Shown here one piece after another: positions 1,249-6,892 of a stretch of 49,035 nt of DNA. Below the pieces are notes generated by a model. The model was not told the DNA's origin and ran no database searches. It worked only from the letters and a program-made list of their open reading frames with translations. Location: NCBI GenBank assembly GCA_022848865.1, contig JAJISE010000001.1, positions 1-49,035 on the forward strand, given 5' to 3'. The translations under genes were made by a program, and so were the position numbers. Numbering within the stretch: position 1 is the stretch's first letter; every line of letters begins with the position of its first letter. Source of the DNA: Candidatus Thermoplasmatota archaeon. Its GTDB lineage: Archaea > Thermoplasmatota > Thermoplasmata > RBG-16-68-12 > JAGMCJ01.

Positions 1249-2025
1249 ATGATAGTCATAAGCGAAAGGATAAACGGGCTTTTCAAATCTGTATCGAAGG
1301 CAATTGACAGCAGGGACACTCAGTTCCTTCAGAACCTGGCAAGAGAGCAGGTCGCCGCCGGCGCGGACGTGCTCGACATAAACACCGGACCGGGGGTAGA
1401 CGACCCGTCTGGAATAATGAAATGGATGGTAGAGACCGTTCAGGACGCGGTGGATGCACAGCTCTCGATAGACACGCCCAACGTGCAGGCAATGGAGGCG
1501 GGGATAACAGCCGCTAAGAACAGGGTCATAATGAACTCGACCACGGCAGAGGCAGCCAAGATGGACGCGCTCTTCCCGCTCGCGCAGAAGTACGATTCCG
1601 AGATTATCTGCCTGACCCTTGATGAGAAGGGAATCCCCAATGACGCCAACAGCAGAGCCGAGCTGGCCATGGTGATGGTCGCGAAGGCAGTGGAGCTCGG
1701 GATAAGCACGGACAAGCTTTACCTGGACCCCCTCGTGCTACCAGTGGGCGCGGCGCAGGACCAGGGGATGAAGGTCCTCGATGCCCTTGGGATGTTCAAG
1801 GCGATCGCGGACCCGGCGCCCAAGACGGTCGTCGGGCTCAGCAACGTGTCCAATAACACAAAGGAGAGACCGCTGCTGAACAGAACCTACCTCGTCATGC
1901 TTCTCGCATATGGACTCGACGCTGCCATAATGGACCCGAGCGATCAGGACCTCATGTACGCGGCCAAGGCCGGAGAGATCCTCCTCAACAAGAAGCTCTA
2001 CGCGGACGACTTCCTGAGGGTCTAG
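1249..2025 (+). CDS. acsE: Methyltetrahydrofolate:corrinoid/iron-sulfur protein methyltransferase (AcsE-like)
   Basis: A 258-residue pterin-binding TIM-barrel protein of the MeTr/AcsE family, which moves the methyl group from methyl-tetrahydropterin to the corrinoid protein of the Wood-Ljungdahl pathway. Family signatures visible: SERING at 5-10, DINTGPGVDD at 43-52, SID with Asp75, MNST at about 95-98, ADPAPKTVVGLSNVS around 187-201 with Asn199, and RPLLNRT. Asp75 and Asn199 fall at the numbering of the pterin-contacting residues I recall for the Moorella enzyme. The length matches the family (about 260). It converges on metF, with both genes stopping in the same CTAG. Because metF and metV are adjacent, I infer a folate-type methyl donor, but a methanopterin-type carrier cannot be excluded. 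Confidence 0.9.
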   Translation: MIVISERINGLFKSVSKAIDSRDTQFLQNLAREQVAAGADVLDINTGPGVDDPSGIMKWMVETVQDAVDAQLSIDTPNVQAMEAGITAAKNRVIMNSTTAEAAKMDALFPLAQKYDSEIICLTLDEKGIPNDANSRAELAMVMVAKAVELGISTDKLYLDPLVLPVGAAQDQGMKVLDALGMFKAIADPAPKTVVGLSNVSNNTKERPLLNRTYLVMLLAYGLDAAIMDPSDQDLMYAAKAGEILLNKKLYADDFLRV

Positions 2026-2942
2026 GCAACGCCCGGTCTCGGAAGGAGCCCAGCGCCCTCCGCGATCTCGGGAACCTTCTCCTCCCACTCGATGGCCATT
2101 ATGTGGACACCGTGGACGCCCTTCATCTCCTTGAGCGCCTCCACCGTCTCGATGGCTATCTGCACGCCCTCTTTCTTCGCGTCGGAGGCGTTCTTCATCC
2201 TCTCGGTGATCTCATCGGGCACGCTCATCCCGGGGACCCTGAACTTGATGTACTTCGCGGCTCCGAGCGACTTGAACGGAATGACACCACCCAGGATGTG
2301 CGCCTTCTTGTCCAGACCCCTCTCGCAAACGCCGTCCATCCATTTCTCGAACCGCTCGATGTCGTAGATCCCCTGCGTCTGGATGAAGTCCACTCCGGCG
2401 GCGATCTTCTTCGCCAGCCGTGCGACGCGGAACTCGAACGGGTCGCCGAACGGGTTGGCGGCCGCCCCGATGAAGATGCGCGGCTCGACGTCCATGTCGT
2501 CCCCGCACTGGAACTTCTTCTCGTCCCTCATCACCTTCACCAGCTGGATGAGCTGTATTGAATCGAGGTCGAAGACGTTCTTCGAGCCGGGGTGATTACC
2601 GAACGTCTGGTGGTCGCCCGTGAGGCAGAGCAGGTTCTTTATGCCCAGGCTGGCGGCTCCCAGTATGTCGGACTGGATGGCGAGCCTGTTCCGGTCGCGG
2701 CAGGTCATCTGCATTATGGGCTCGAGCCCCTCGCCGAGCATGATGACGCCCGCCGCCATGCTGCAGAGTCTGGCGATGGCCGTCTGATTGTCCGTGATGT
2801 TGGCAGCGTCGACTGACCCCCTGAGCAGGTCGATCTTCTTCCGTATGACGCCGGGGTCCGCGCTCTGTGGCGGGCCGCACTCTCCCGTGACCGCGAACTC
2901 GCCCTTCTCGAGCAGCTTCTCGAGGTGGCTCTCCGCCTTCAC
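2022..2942 (-). CDS. metF: Methylenetetrahydrofolate reductase, MetF
   Basis: A 306-residue FAD-dependent MTHFR-family protein reducing methylene- to methyl-tetrahydrofolate (or a related pterin). Visible features: an N-terminal VTGECGPP segment, an NITDNQ region near residue 50, NLLCLTGD at about 103-110, an IGAAANPF stretch at about 163-170, and a DFIQTQGIYD segment at about 189-198 typical of the family barrel. The start at ATG 2942 abuts the stop of metV (last base 2943), so the two are one transcription unit. No C-terminal regulatory domain is present, as usual for prokaryotic MetF. In Moorella-type acetogens MetF and MetV form a complex linked to Hdr/MvhD electron carriers. The same neighbours occur here, so an Fe-S electron donor rather than NADH is likely. 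Confidence 0.93.
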   Translation of the reverse strand: MKAESHLEKLLEKGEFAVTGECGPPQSADPGVIRKKIDLLRGSVDAANITDNQTAIARLCSMAAGVIMLGEGLEPIMQMTCRDRNRLAIQSDILGAASLGIKNLLCLTGDHQTFGNHPGSKNVFDLDSIQLIQLVKVMRDEKKFQCGDDMDVEPRIFIGAAANPFGDPFEFRVARLAKKIAAGVDFIQTQGIYDIERFEKWMDGVCERGLDKKAHILGGVIPFKSLGAAKYIKFRVPGMSVPDEITERMKNASDAKKEGVQIAIETVEALKEMKGVHGVHIMAIEWEEKVPEIAEGAGLLPRPGVA

Positions 2943-3629
2943 CTAATCCCTCCTCGGGCGGTCCATGAACATCATCTCCTTCGGCGTCCTTCTCGTACCG
3001 CCGTGCGTGCTCGTCGACCAGTCCTTGGCGGGCATGATCTCCTCCATCTGCTCCAGCCTGCCGAGGGCCTTCAGGCGGTCGTATATGAGCTGCCACGCGC
3101 AGTCGAGCTCCTTGTCCACCTCGCACTTCCCGTCCTGGGACCCGCCGCAGGGTCCGTTGAGCAGGCTCTTGGAGCATCTGGCTATCGGGCATATCCCCGC
3201 GGTGAGGTCGAGAATGCAGTCCCCGCACGCGGCGCACCTCTCGGAGACCGTTCCCATCTCCCGCTCCTCCGAGCCCATGAACATCGTGTTCTGCCCGGGG
3301 AACACGGGAGCGTCCTCGAGCACGTCGCTGAGGACCTGAACGCCGATTCCGCAAGAGAGCGAAACTACGGCGTCCACACTCTCCATGAGCGGGCTCAGCG
3401 TCGAGTGTGCGATCTTGTCGTCGCACTGCTTGATGACCGTCGTGTATGTAGTCTCGACCTTCTCGCCCTTGAGCTCGGAGGCCATCTCGATGAGCAATGC
3501 CAGGCTCTTCGCCTCCCTCAGCCCGCGCGGGGGCTGGTCGCAGCCGTCGCACCCGGCGATGAGTATCTTCTTGTGCCCGCCCAGGAAGCTCATGATCTCC
3601 TCGAGCGGTTTCTCCTCTGTGACTATCAT
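2943..3629 (-). CDS. metV: MetV-like zinc/iron-sulfur partner of methylenetetrahydrofolate reductase
   Basis: A 228-residue protein read from ATG 3629; the frame extends upstream, but that extension overlaps the preceding gene and looks like shadow. The chosen start overlaps the upstream stop in ATGA and has GGAGG before it. The N-terminal half contains GCDGCDQPPRG, and the C-terminal half has a dense cysteine cluster (CAACGDC, CPIARC, GPCGG, GKCEV), the MTHFR C-terminal-like/MetV signature. Family members bind MetF and Fe-S clusters and mediate electron delivery. It is directly followed by metF. The tail (WSTSTHGGTRRTPKEMMFM) is basic. The call is firm for the family; the electron donor is inferred from the next gene. 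Confidence 0.87.
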   Translation of the reverse strand: MIVTEEKPLEEIMSFLGGHKKILIAGCDGCDQPPRGLREAKSLALLIEMASELKGEKVETTYTTVIKQCDDKIAHSTLSPLMESVDAVVSLSCGIGVQVLSDVLEDAPVFPGQNTMFMGSEEREMGTVSERCAACGDCILDLTAGICPIARCSKSLLNGPCGGSQDGKCEVDKELDCAWQLIYDRLKALGRLEQMEEIMPAKDWSTSTHGGTRRTPKEMMFMDRPRRD

Positions 3630-4816
3630 CCTGTTCCCTCCTCCACCTTCTCGGCGGTGCCAAGCTCCTTCATGTTCTGCTTGAAGTGCTCCAGGGCGTT
3701 GGCGAAGCTGCCTATGATGCGCGGCGTGGCCTCCGTCAGCTGAAGCCTCTCCGGGTCTATCCCCGTCTCCTCGAGAAGCGCCTTCAGGCTCTCGGCCCGC
3801 CTGTGCGCGTGCTTGCTCCCCTCCTCGAGCCTGCAGAGGTCCTCCGGGCAGGTGACGATGAGGACGCCCTCGGCTCCGTTCTTGAACGCCTCTAGCACGT
3901 GCAGCGGGTCTATCCTCCCGGAGCAAGGCAGTTCGATGAACCCGATGTCCTCGGGAAGGTGCTCCTCGTAGATGTCGTCGAGAAGCCTGAACTCGCTCCA
4001 CTGGCATCCGAAGACCACCAGCTTGGGCTCTGTCCTCTCGACCTCCGCCTCGACCTTCTTCGACAGGGGCTCGTACTCGGACTTCTTGAGCTCAATCGCC
4101 ATCCCGGTGCAGTAGGGGACGCATATCCCGCAGCCGCGGCACTTCTCAGGGTCTATGTTCGAGATGCCAGGGCTCTCCATCGTGACGGCGTCGAACGGAC
4201 AGAGCGCGAAGCAGTTGCCGCAGCCGACGCAGGCGTCCCTGTCGACGTCGGCCACGAGCGTGTTCCTCAGCAGAGTGACCGTGTCCTCCGGGTAGCCGAT
4301 GTCCTCCAGCATCATCTGGGCGGTGAGCATCTTGGTCGTGTTCGTCTCCGCACCCTCTATGAAGCGGCAGAAATCCTCCTCGCATGCGATGACGAAGATG
4401 CGCTCGATGCCCATGTTGACGGCGTCCATGTACGTGTCCAGAGGCATCCTGCCTATGCACGGTATCGCCATGGGTATGAACTCCTTCACCCCGACCATCT
4501 CGACGAGCTCCTCGTCCGAGGGCGCGCTTCCCCGACAGTATATGACAAGCGTGTCCGCACCGTCGGTCATCTTGCTCTCCAGGTAACCCCTGAGCGCGTC
4601 CTTGTCGTAGTAGTACGTGTCGATCGCGTTTATGGGACAGGCGGGCGCGCAGATACCGCAGATCATGCACTTCTCCTGGTCAAGGACGGCGACGTTCCTC
4701 TCCGTGTCGATCTCGATCGCCTCGTACGGGCAGGCGGCAGGACATATCCGGCACTCCCCGCAGTCATCGGCGTGAATGTCTATTGGAAAATCCATCTCCG
4801 ACTCCTCCTCGGTCAT
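3626..4816 (-). CDS. Duplicated ferredoxin-MvhD electron-transfer protein
   Basis: A 396-residue protein made of two copies of the same pair of domains. Residues 19-62 hold two [4Fe-4S] motifs (CGECRICPAACP, CMICGICAPACP), and 85-185 form an MvhD/FlpD-type domain (Cys94, Cys120, Cys145, Cys150). Residues 196-240 hold two more clusters (CVGCGNCFALCP, CRGCGICVPYCTG), and 265-375 form a second MvhD domain (GCQW, LPCSGRIDP, TCPEDLC). MvhD normally passes electrons to heterodisulfide reductase HdrA. No HdrA is encoded here, so the partner may be MetF/MetV directly or an HdrA elsewhere. It is the first gene of an operon with metV and metF. ATG 4816 lies about 27 bases after a TTTATAAA box. Confidence 0.85.
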   Translation of the reverse strand: MTEEESEMDFPIDIHADDCGECRICPAACPYEAIEIDTERNVAVLDQEKCMICGICAPACPINAIDTYYYDKDALRGYLESKMTDGADTLVIYCRGSAPSDEELVEMVGVKEFIPMAIPCIGRMPLDTYMDAVNMGIERIFVIACEEDFCRFIEGAETNTTKMLTAQMMLEDIGYPEDTVTLLRNTLVADVDRDACVGCGNCFALCPFDAVTMESPGISNIDPEKCRGCGICVPYCTGMAIELKKSEYEPLSKKVEAEVERTEPKLVVFGCQWSEFRLLDDIYEEHLPEDIGFIELPCSGRIDPLHVLEAFKNGAEGVLIVTCPEDLCRLEEGSKHAHRRAESLKALLEETGIDPERLQLTEATPRIIGSFANALEHFKQNMKELGTAEKVEEGTG

Positions 4817-4907: not shown

Positions 4908-6278
4908 ATGTGGGATGTAGTCATCGTCGGTTCTGGCCCTGCAGGCCTCTTCGCGGCCAACGAGCTAGCGGACGGCAAGAGAATCCTCGTCATCGACATG
5001 GGCAAGGGCGTGAAGGAGAGGGAGTGCCCGCTCAAGTACGACTGGGGGTGCGAGAAGTGCAAACCCTGCGACATCATGTGCGGTCTTGGCGGGGCGGGAA
5101 CGTTCTCTGGCGGGCGGCTGAACCTGAGACCCGACATCGGCGGGGACCTGACGGAGTTGGTGGAGACCGCCGAGCAGGCCTGGCAGCTCATTGAGGATGT
5201 TGACAGGGTCTTCCTGAAGCACGGAGCACCGCAGGAGCTCCACACGCCGGACCAGGGCGACGTGGAGAGGCTCAGCCACAAAGCCGCGTCCGCAGGGGTC
5301 AAGTTCATCAACATCCCGCAGAGGCACATCGGCTCGGACAACGCCCCGAAGGTGATAGAGGCCTTCGCCGAGGACCTGAGAGGCCGAGGCGTCGAGTTCC
5401 TCTTGGACACGAGAGTCACCGATCTGCTGATAGAGGACGGCGTGTGCCGAGGAGTCCGGACGGGTGACAAGGAGATCCTCGCCAAGGCAGTGATCCTGTG
5501 CCCCGGTCGAGTGGGTGCGCCGTGGGTGGAGGACCTCGTGGCAAGAGAAGTAATGACTGCGCGTTTCGGCCCCATCGACGTCGGCGTGAGGATCGAGGTC
5601 CCCGCGATAGTCATGGACCCCGTCACGAAGGTGAACATGGATCCGAAGTTCCATATCCACACGAAGACGTACGACGACTTCGCCAGGACGTTCTGCACGA
5701 ACGCACGAGGATACGTCGTCAGGGAAAGGTACGACAGCTTCATCGGCGTGAACGGGCACTCCATGGTCTCAGAGCACTCGAAGAACACGAACTTCGCCCT
5801 GCTCGTAAGGGTGGAACTGACCGAGCCCGTGGAGAACACGACCATCTACGGCAGGTCCATCGCCGAGCTCGCGACAACGATCGGCGGCGGGAAGCCCATC
5901 ATACAGAGGATGGGGGACCTGAGAAGGGGAAGGAGGTCGAACCGGGAGCGGTTGAAGTCCAACCTCGTCGTGGGAACGCTCAAGGACGTCGCACCGGGAG
6001 ACATCTCCATGGCCCTCCCCGGTCGCATAGTGACCGATATCATCGAGGCGCTGGAGAAGCTCAACGAGATCATACCCGGTGTCGCGGCGAACTCCACGCT
6101 GATCTACGCGCCCGAAATCAAGTTCTACGCGATGGAGGTCGAGGTCGACGAGAGGATGCAGACGAGCGTGCGGAACTTGTTCGCGGCAGGCGACGGCGTG
6201 GGCCTCTCAGGGGACATCGTTAACGCTTCTGCCACAGGAATCCTGGCGGGAAGGGGAGTCAAGGAGACTCTGAGCTGA
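4908..6278 (+). CDS. FAD-dependent dehydrogenase, COG2509 family, with a possible [4Fe-4S] motif
   Basis: A 456-residue flavoprotein. The N-terminal Rossmann motif VIVGSGPAG (5-13) binds FAD, and a C-terminal NLFAAGDGVGLSGDIV completes the flavin site. Between them, CEKCKPCDIMC (48-58) has exact CX2CX2CX3C spacing, followed by GLGGAGTFSGGRLN, a hallmark of the COG2509 dehydrogenases. Family biochemistry is poorly known. GGTGGAG precedes ATG 4908. The next gene starts in the stop codon (TGATG), so they are co-translated. It is divergent from the metF operon, so a redox role in the same one-carbon metabolism is plausible but inferred from position only. Confidence 0.85.
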   Translation: MWDVVIVGSGPAGLFAANELADGKRILVIDMGKGVKERECPLKYDWGCEKCKPCDIMCGLGGAGTFSGGRLNLRPDIGGDLTELVETAEQAWQLIEDVDRVFLKHGAPQELHTPDQGDVERLSHKAASAGVKFINIPQRHIGSDNAPKVIEAFAEDLRGRGVEFLLDTRVTDLLIEDGVCRGVRTGDKEILAKAVILCPGRVGAPWVEDLVAREVMTARFGPIDVGVRIEVPAIVMDPVTKVNMDPKFHIHTKTYDDFARTFCTNARGYVVRERYDSFIGVNGHSMVSEHSKNTNFALLVRVELTEPVENTTIYGRSIAELATTIGGGKPIIQRMGDLRRGRRSNRERLKSNLVVGTLKDVAPGDISMALPGRIVTDIIEALEKLNEIIPGVAANSTLIYAPEIKFYAMEVEVDERMQTSVRNLFAAGDGVGLSGDIVNASATGILAGRGVKETLS

Positions 6279-6892
6279 TGCCCGACCTTCTGGAAAGGAA
6301 GAAACCGAGCTCGTTGGACGAGGTCATTGAGGAGGCGTGGAAGGAGCTCGAGTCGAGGGACCGAGCGACCGTGGCCAAGCACTCGCTCGGAGAGCTGAAG
6401 GACGGGGTCCTCGAGATACTGTTTCTCGGGGAACGATATCTCCTGGACTTCGATGAGCGTGTGGTTAAGAACGTCGACGGTTCGACCGCCAACCGTTTCT
6501 TCGCGACTCTCGTTCTCCACTACGTCGTCGGCGTTGACGAGTCGATGCCCACGGGTGAACTGGTTTCCTTCAGGGAATTCTGGGGCGGGGAATCATATCA
6601 CGGCGCCTTCGTGAGCAGGGCGATACAGCCCGTCAAGGACGCATTCGCGGAGGCCCCGGAAGAGCTGAAGGCACGCGCGGAGAAGCTGGGAGGGAGGAGA
6701 GTTGACCACGGCGATGTCTCCTACGAGATCCCCGTCTTCCCGAAGGTCGCGCTGACGATCATCATCTGGAGGGGGGATGAGGAGATACCGGGGTCCGCGA
6801 ACATGCTCTTTGACCACCAGGCAGGGCGGATCCTGCACACCGAGGACCTGGCGGCCTTGGGAGAGCTGGTCGCGAGGATGCTTGTCCGGTAG
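6278..6892 (+). CDS. DUF3786 domain protein
   Basis: A 204-residue soluble protein resembling DUF3786, a family often found near corrinoid and acetyl-CoA pathway genes (from memory, not searched). The C-terminal half holds the recognisable part: an EIPVFPKVALTIIIW strand, then GDEEIPGSANMLFD, typical of the family's glycine/proline-rich motif with a conserved Asp. It starts at ATG 6278 inside the stop of the upstream flavoprotein gene (1-base overlap), so the pair is co-expressed. No membrane segments or cysteine clusters are seen. Function is unknown; the context suggests a role linked to methyl transfer or its redox chemistry. Confidence 0.75.
   Translation: MPDLLERKKPSSLDEVIEEAWKELESRDRATVAKHSLGELKDGVLEILFLGERYLLDFDERVVKNVDGSTANRFFATLVLHYVVGVDESMPTGELVSFREFWGGESYHGAFVSRAIQPVKDAFAEAPEELKARAEKLGGRRVDHGDVSYEIPVFPKVALTIIIWRGDEEIPGSANMLFDHQAGRILHTEDLAALGELVARMLVR

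Follow-up and report, generated by a model that had tools for sequence, protein, structure and literature searches.

A tandem ferredoxin-MvhD protein as the probable electron-input subunit of an HdrA-free MetVF reductase in Thermoplasmata

We analysed a window of 49,035 nucleotides, the whole of the stretch studied, from a Candidatus Thermoplasmatota archaeon (assembly GCA_022848865.1, contig JAJISE010000001.1). At positions 1249-4816 it carries a four-gene cluster of the folate Wood-Ljungdahl pathway, encoding AcsE, MetF, MetV and a protein with two ferredoxin-MvhD units in tandem, which we named FdMvhD2 (Table 1). Gene content and comparative genomics suggest that FdMvhD2 is probably a dedicated electron-input subunit of MetVF, replacing the HdrCBA-MvhD module of the Hdr-type enzyme of Moorella and Sporomusa. 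In our best reading, the window enzyme would represent a fifth type of MetVF reductase, one that has no HdrA and draws its electrons from hydrogenase or ferredoxin. We found no published description of an FdMvhD2-MetV-MetF unit in the literature searched.

Table 1. Features of the cluster and its neighbours, in window coordinates
Feature	Position	Strand	Size, basis or remark
AcsE, methyl-H4F:corrinoid/iron-sulfur protein methyltransferase	1249..2025	+	258 aa; PRK07535, 2yci
MetF, methylene-tetrahydrofolate reductase	2022..2942	-	306 aa; PF02219 132 bits; MetF tree
MetV, iron-sulfur subunit of MetVF, FdMvhD2-linked type	2943..3629	-	228 aa; PF12225; MetV tree
MetV signature GCDGCDQPPRG, residues 26-36	3522..3554	-	Hdr-linked MetV counterpart GCxxCxxxCxxGGE
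FdMvhD2, (2x[4Fe-4S] ferredoxin + MvhD) x 2, single chain	3626..4816	-	396 aa; Pfam, duplication test, invariant Cys
FdMvhD2 ferredoxin domain 1	4607..4780	-	Cys 19,22,25,29 / 50,53,56,60
FdMvhD2 MvhD-like unit 1	4265..4561	-	Cys 94,120,145,150; FlpD 39 bits over cut-off
FdMvhD2 ferredoxin domain 2	4082..4258	-	Cys 196,199,202,206 / 226,229,232,236
FdMvhD2 MvhD-like unit 2	3659..4030	-	Cys 271,298,323,328; FlpD 104 bits; 5odc MvhD E 2e-16
FAD-dependent oxidoreductase, divergent neighbour	4908..6278	+	also adjoins Hdr module in relatives
DUF3786 protein, conserved neighbour	6278..6892	+	-

AcsE matches the NCBIfam family PRK07535 with 292 bits (cut-off 259), and its top hit in the PDB is the AcsE of 2yci (E 2e-80), with the SIDT, NST, DPL and LSNVS motifs retained in the alignment. 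MetV scores 129 bits against PF12225 (cut-off 23), and its gene lies next to that of MetF (PF02219), the arrangement by which MetVF is recognised. The FdMvhD2 gene shares 4 bp with that of MetV, and MetF begins directly after MetV, so that the three appear to form a single operon; AcsE is convergent. The locus is not of the RnfC2 type, since no gene lies between FdMvhD2, MetV and MetF and RnfC is absent from the annotated neighbours. Scans of the locus for sigma-70-like and terminator-like sequences yielded nothing useful.

By Pfam, FdMvhD2 contains two stretches of FlpD/MvhD type along with four [4Fe-4S] motifs. When its halves were aligned to each other the score was 201, compared with 33 +/- 6 for shuffled sequences, a difference that bears out the internal duplication. 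The 24 cysteines of the window protein, 16 of ferredoxin type and two sets of four of MvhD type, are all invariant across 25 homologues. An AlphaFold2 model (mean pLDDT 77.7) matched MvhD of 5odh in Foldseek with a TM-score of 0.81 by target length. With FlpD domain, conserved cysteines and MvhD fold, FdMvhD2 belongs to the MvhD (FlpD) family. It also matches the HdrA2 family NF040770 with 198 bits over two stretches: each half is similar to the ferredoxin-MvhD tail at the C terminus of HdrA2, in which HdrA is fused to MvhD, but the flavin-binding HdrA core is missing. FdMvhD2 may thus be likened to a doubled HdrA2 tail released from its flavin core.

In the FdMvhD2 tree, the MetVF-linked and Nfn-linked proteins form two branches, with a support of 100/100 for the split. 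The sister branch accompanies NfnAB in Methanomassiliicoccales, in Bathyarchaeota and in one Chloroflexi MAG. Family matches and the duplication test confirm the cluster as the earlier note had described it, whereas the two-copy protein is not a one-off. We considered the Nfn-linked clusters as Stn complexes and rejected this; StnABC consists of HydC-, HydB- and NfnB/NuoG-like subunits with other domains (PMC7483475), and this type was set aside for the locus and for the Nfn-linked clusters alike.

Elsewhere the window genome encodes Fhs and FolD as well as an AcsABCD operon of bacterial type, and Fhs, FolD, MetF, AcsE and CODH/ACS of the folate-type pathway were all found. A search of ten genomes of the order did not turn up the methanopterin enzyme Mch; judged by this one enzyme of the set Mch, Ftr, Mtd, Mer and Fwd, a methanopterin-type pathway appears to be missing. 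The reading of the locus as a folate-type methyl branch in an archaeon is thereby borne out, and such branches have already been published for Thermoplasmata (PMC11264602). The accompanying statement that hdrA is absent holds for the FdMvhD2-MetV-MetF locus, where the set typical of Hdr-type MTHFR (hdrA, hdrB and hdrC with a single mvhD in the metVF cluster) was not found, but fails for the genome, in which hdrA is abundant with its own MvhD. A profile search gave 11 FlpD matches on six contigs, and HdrA genes adjoin MvhD on contigs C51, C15, C4, C69 and C71. No HdrA/MvhD orthologue specific to MetVF turned up in this genome: its best match to the MetVF-linked pair reaches 45%/46%, versus 54-81%/67-89% in relatives.

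The cluster recurs in at least four MAGs from two families of one Thermoplasmata order, a distribution to be read as a lower bound. By the literature, this order may be RBG-16-68-12 (Yaplasmales) or Gimiplasmatales. FdMvhD2 accompanies MetV in G000 (the window genome), G025, G144 and G090. At the same locus close relatives carry HdrCBA-MvhD-MetV-MetF: Hdr-type genes with MvhD-MetV-MetF lie beside AcsE in G014, G068 and G159 of the same order and in G123 of the window's own genus. The metVF cluster contains hdrA/B/C and mvhD in G014, G068 and G104, and part of this set in G159 and G123. G090, with the FdMvhD2 module, and G014, with the Hdr module, belong to one genus. AcsE tracks the species (95% to its own for G123, 88% to G014 for G090), and its grouping by module is rejected (p-AU 4e-7). 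MetV and MetF track the module; grouping by genus is rejected with p-AU 2e-53 for MetV and 1e-5 for MetF. Within the order, MetV identity is 69-97% among Fd-type and 60-92% among Hdr-type proteins, and 35-47% between the two types. G123 holds pieces of both modules, so coexistence instead of replacement is possible. The FdMvhD2-MetV-MetF unit is also found in G218, from another class, inside a FolD-AcsV-Acs block.

Across phyla, FdMvhD2-linked MetV forms one group with a single change on the tree, at a modest support of 82/80. FdMvhD2-linked MetF requires at least five changes, and a single clade is rejected (p-AU 4e-46). We therefore read FdMvhD2-MetV as a transferable electron-input unit. 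The window MetF falls in a clade common to Thermoplasmatota and Thermodesulfobacteriota, and the nearest kin of the window MetV are in Bathyarchaeia, at odds with its earlier description as a bacterial acetogen-like protein. Scanning 256 genomes of the Bathyarchaeia class for the MetV signature gave nine matches, all with FdMvhD2 before MetV and MetF after it. Six adjoin a VhuA/VhuG-like (group-3c-like [NiFe]) hydrogenase region, either head-to-head with the FdMvhD2 unit (G673, G677 and G679; in the sequence read for G677, a protease gene only) or in the same operon, with MetV and MetF fused (G707, G708 and G709). In G501 and G570 the unit lies beside Fwd and Mch. The signature is not exclusive to FdMvhD2, because Asgard MetVs (GCDGCCQPPRS), sister to the FdMvhD2-linked group, adjoin HdrA-MvhD-HdrC-HdrB. 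We abandoned the idea that MetV loses a cluster together with the third cysteine of CxxCxxxC, since its N domain still has four cysteines and two Asgard MetVs altered in the same way adjoin Hdr genes. Overall, the module swap, the co-inheritance with MetV and the recurrence in other phyla support the suggestion of the earlier note that FdMvhD2 is a direct partner of MetVF.

The window unit shares with the Hdr-type HdrCBA-MvhD-MetVF of Moorella thermoacetica and Sporomusa ovata, the system carried by its relatives, a MetV-MetF core and an MvhD-containing input subunit just upstream of MetV. Unlike that enzyme it is without HdrA, HdrB and HdrC, its MvhD is duplicated and joined to ferredoxin domains, and its MetV is of the other type. 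The MetVF-type methylene-THF reductase, ferredoxin-dependent in vitro, likewise has MetV and MetF without Hdr or RnfC2, but the window operon adds the tandem subunit. With the MvhAGD/group 3c [NiFe] hydrogenase, which works with HdrABC, FdMvhD2 has in common the MvhD fold and four conserved cysteines per unit, as well as the adjoining hydrogenase genes in Bathyarchaeia; it differs in having two MvhD units per chain, and its output would be MetV-MetF instead of HdrABC. For ANME-1 and uncultured archaea, MetF adjoining MetV has been described as a possible Mer replacement on H4MPT, and the MetFV of Syntrophoarchaeum comes with HdrA and MvhD; FdMvhD2 is not named in the portion of that source available to us (PMC9012536).

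In the mechanism that we propose, FdMvhD2 would form a complex with MetV and MetF. Either a group-3c-like MvhAG [NiFe] hydrogenase or reduced ferredoxin would deliver electrons to one end, from where a chain of up to four [4Fe-4S] and two [2Fe-2S] clusters would lead them to MetV and on to the flavin of MetF. MetF would convert methylene-H4F to methyl-H4F; AcsE would pass the methyl group on to the corrinoid protein, and AcsABCD would use it to make acetyl-CoA. Because the unit has no HdrA flavin, electron bifurcation would not be expected at the MetF step. MetV, matched to FdMvhD2, would serve for docking, and MetF would be an exchangeable, pterin-specific subunit, working on H4F in the window and probably on H4MPT in Bathyarchaeia. 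In Sporomusa MvhD pulls down MetF (PMC9430772), and formate dehydrogenase docks on MvhD at the MvhAG site (PMC6085437). A hydrogenase as donor is suggested by the gene linkage in Bathyarchaeia, since in the window genome the hydrogenase lies on a different contig, next to an HdrA and an MvhD of its own. MetVF with ferredoxin alone reduces methylene-H4F in vitro (PMC9430772), so FdMvhD2 may be dispensable.

FdMvhD2 could instead be a mere adaptor from MetVF to an HdrA complex encoded elsewhere, with bifurcation through HdrA in trans. Several HdrA-like genes with MvhD on the five other contigs, the likeness of each half to the HdrA2 tail and the HdrA that stays near the Asgard sister MetVs are in line with such a role. 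However, HdrA occurs in none of the 14 FdMvhD2-MetV-MetF stretches examined, the MetVF-specific orthologue was not found in G000, and three Bathyarchaeia have a hydrogenase within the operon itself; we regard an adaptor as quite unlikely. A route in which an Nfn-like dehydrogenase supplies FdMvhD2, and through it MetVF, with electrons from NAD(P)H, as NfnA/NfnB probably do for the sister branch, appears very unlikely. The Nfn-linked homologues point that way, but their branch is cleanly apart from the MetVF-linked one, and G000 has no close NfnB (best match 36%, inside a larger ORF). The FAD-dependent oxidoreductase adjoining the cluster would also fit; we rejected it as an FdMvhD2-specific donor because relatives have it next to the Hdr module as well.

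MetVF might also be mainly oxidative or biosynthetic, with methyl groups from methylated compounds entering at methyl-H4F via AcsE and being oxidised, while FdMvhD2 drains the electrons, for instance to protons through hydrogenase. AcsE together with Hdr-type MetVF in L224, a genome from another family of the class, and the methylotrophic acetogenesis proposed for related Thermoplasmata (PMC11264602) speak for it, yet the full acs operon is equally compatible with carbon fixation. Sequence cannot tell the direction, and this somewhat unlikely alternative touches the direction, not the parts. An assembly or binning artefact, a bacterial contig in an archaeal bin, could be suspected from the bacterial look of AcsE and MetF and from the closeness of the cluster to the contig end. 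We rejected the contamination that the earlier note had allowed for as extremely improbable, because independent MAGs of two families in the order carry the cluster, with genes 72-99% identical.

The route of electrons into MetVF and the conservation of energy there are an old question of acetogenesis, with a long-disputed donor, and the same question arises for archaea whose MetF may stand in for Mer. At the window locus, close relatives, even within one genus, differ in the input module alone, next to an unchanged AcsE. Such Fd-type and Hdr-type relatives are matched pairs for studying donor, bifurcation and direction, and MetV carries a sequence mark that goes with the partner module. The Bathyarchaeia operon with fused MetV-MetF, FdMvhD2 and hydrogenase is a compact candidate for reconstitution. 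More broadly, FdMvhD2 and its matched MetV may be a portable HdrA-free archaeal input module that was joined several times to different, H4F- or H4MPT-linked MetFs, a proposal for which we see the chances as evenly balanced. If true, the module together with a group-3c-like hydrogenase would constitute a soluble H2:methylene-tetrahydropterin oxidoreductase and so add another type to the methylene-tetrahydropterin reductases; a lineage exchanging HdrABC-MvhD and FdMvhD2 would move from a bifurcating methyl branch to a non-bifurcating one or back.

FdMvhD2, a single protein with two ferredoxin-MvhD units, forms one tight block with MetV and MetF in the window: it overlaps MetV by 4 bp, and MetF starts immediately after the MetV stop. 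The earlier note had placed AcsE, MetF and MetV beside a duplicated ferredoxin-MvhD protein, and both domain matches and an alignment of the two FdMvhD2 halves confirmed this. The alignment scored 201 against 33 ± 6 for shuffles, indicating a true internal duplication. Both halves resemble the ferredoxin-MvhD tail of HdrA2 (NF040770, 198 bits, two stretches), but the HdrA flavin core is not present. All 24 cysteines are invariant across the 25 homologues compared and, by sequence, could ligate four [4Fe-4S] and two MvhD-type clusters. The AlphaFold2 model (mean pLDDT 77.7) matched MvhD of the HdrABC-MvhAGD complex in Foldseek (5odh, TM-score 0.81 by target length); no solved tandem-type protein was among the matches listed.

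Positions of the window genes and of MetV-MetF fusions (about 544 aa; 543 aa in G708) on DNA stretches of three Bathyarchaeia
Feature	Position	Strand or orientation	Remark
FdMvhD2	3626-4816	minus	domain matches unambiguous
MetV	2943-3629	minus	domain matches unambiguous
MetF	2022-2942	minus	domain matches unambiguous
AcsE	1249-2025	convergent with MetF	domain matches unambiguous
MetV-MetF fusion	L269:2693-4327		Bathyarchaeia
MetV-MetF fusion	L270:1144-2775		Bathyarchaeia
MetV-MetF fusion	L271:3607-5247		Bathyarchaeia

A MetF match was obtained in 31 of the order's 37 genomes. At this locus, G014 and G068 encode, in order, DUF3786, FAD oxidoreductase, HdrC, HdrB, HdrA, MvhD, MetV, MetF, with AcsE convergent, an arrangement shared with the Moorella/Sporomusa reductase (Hdr-type; PMC9430772). 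The Hdr-MvhD-MetV-MetF order recurs in G104, and the incomplete loci of G159 and G123 are consistent with it. Between the FAD gene and AcsE, the window's genome (G000) and G025 hold FdMvhD2-MetV-MetF (Fd-type) and nothing else; G144 and G090 also carry this module. G123 shares its genus with the window, and G090 with G014. AcsE sorts by species, with identities of 95% (G123-G000) and 88% (G090-G014), and 73-76% across. MetV is 69-97% identical within the Fd-type, 60-92% within the Hdr-type and 35-47% between them, and MetF likewise sorts by module. Topology tests rejected module grouping for AcsE (p-AU 4e-7) and grouping by genus for MetV (p-AU 2e-53) and MetF (p-AU 1e-5). The best G000 matches to the MetVF-specific HdrA and MvhD reach 45 and 46% identity, and those of relatives 54-81 and 67-89%. 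Taken together, these results suggest that the electron module was exchanged as a whole, together with the MetV and MetF that belong to it, next to an AcsE that was inherited vertically.

In G123 (L030 and L069), Hdr-type MetVF adjoins AcsE, and a separate contig holds an FdMvhD2 start identical to the window's; either one species has both modules or strains are mixed. The single-contig genome G159 has a split metF, its first 57 codons ~35 kb from the remainder (L066:9736-9906; L081/L111), through either rearrangement or assembly error. L224, from another family of the class (G164), combines Hdr-type MetVF, an AcsE homologue, Fhs, FolD and a DUF3786 gene in one cluster.

The FdMvhD2 tree separates MetVF-linked from Nfn-linked proteins (support 100/100). 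One change explains FdMvhD2 linkage in the MetV tree (support 82/80), where the linked MetVs are nested in a 100/98 group whose only extra members are two HdrB-linked Asgard MetVs. The MetF tree, in contrast, requires at least five changes, and topologies uniting the linked MetFs in a single clade are rejected (p-AU 4e-46). This indicates that FdMvhD2 and MetV probably travel together while MetF gets exchanged. The window's unit itself is chimeric: its MetF belongs to a clade shared with Thermodesulfobacteriota, and its MetV and FdMvhD2 have their kin in Bathyarchaeia. In Lokiarchaeota and Helarchaeota MAGs (L262, L263), HdrA-MvhD-HdrC-HdrB-MetV-MetF clusters encode a MetV (GCDGCCQPPRS) that is sister to the FdMvhD2-linked ones.

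MetV carries GCDGCxxPPRG when linked to FdMvhD2 and GCxxCxxxCxxGGE when Hdr-linked. The former matched nine of 256 genomes in the class of one Bathyarchaeota genome, and all nine had the order FdMvhD2, MetV, MetF; being selected by signature, they test whether the signature predicts FdMvhD2, not whether FdMvhD2 predicts the signature. Fwd genes and Mch adjoin the module in G501 and G570, and a hydrogenase region lies head-to-head with it in G673, G677 and G679 (in G677 the stretch read includes only the protease gene of that region). In G707, G708 and G709, FdMvhD2 is followed in one operon by a MetV-MetF fusion, the hydrogenase small subunit and, where the contig reaches (two of the three), the large subunit; Cdh/Acs-like genes come next in G708. 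In the large subunits checked, the CxxC...CxxC metal ligands are retained, and VhuA gives the highest score. In another class of the phylum, G218 unites FdMvhD2-MetV-MetF, FolD, AcsV-like, AcsA-AcsB, AcsD, AcsC and AcsE in one block. Its AcsA (CODH) and AcsB (ACS) share a single 1369-aa open reading frame (L223:13170-17279), whose product both models match full length (NCBIfam).

Folate Wood-Ljungdahl genes in Thermoplasmata (PMC11264602), Hdr-type MetVF (PMC9430772), HdrA-MvhD fusions and MetF in Mer's place (PMC9012536) were published earlier. The open-access papers searched describe neither FdMvhD2 together with MetVF nor a swap of this protein for HdrABC-MvhD. The tandem had been considered non-standard; the duplication is real, but it is not a one-off, since it also adjoins NfnAB. 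This sister branch occurs at L113, L114, L117, L115, L116, L133 and L118, with NfnA-/NfnB-like genes read in L113, L117 and L118 and also present in Methanomassiliicoccales-type G078, G188 and G038. Hydrogenase genes are often close by, and an undescribed hydrogenase-Nfn complex is possible.

The window covers the first 49 kb of a 119-kb contig, which belongs to a 2.03-Mb MAG of the class Thermoplasmata (completeness 95.8%, contamination 0.7%). Fhs, FolD and CdhC/AcsB are present, with an operon on contig C12 for AcsV/RACo-like, CooC-like, AcsC, AcsD, AcsB (718 aa) and CooS-type AcsA proteins, and Mch had no match in ten genomes of the order. The methyl branch is thus predicted to be folate-type, as known before in Thermoplasmata (PMC11264602). 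The claim that hdrA is absent did not hold for the genome, which carries HdrA with its own MvhD on five other contigs (C51, C15, C4, C69, C71); C51 also encodes a VhuA/VhuG-like hydrogenase.

MvhD is the port feeding HdrA from MvhAG or formate dehydrogenase (PMC6085437), and Sporomusa MvhD pulled down MetF (PMC9430772). From this we infer a route, including its direction, in which a group-3c-like hydrogenase or ferredoxin, the putative donor, would reduce FdMvhD2, and electrons would pass through MetV to the MetF flavin, bypassing HdrA and hence without flavin-based bifurcation. As the methylene-H4F/methyl-H4F couple lies at about -200 mV (PMC9430772), the reduction would be downhill from H2 or ferredoxin. 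If this HdrA-free route is true, it would come at a cost, since the energy possibly conserved by Hdr-type enzymes would be lost.
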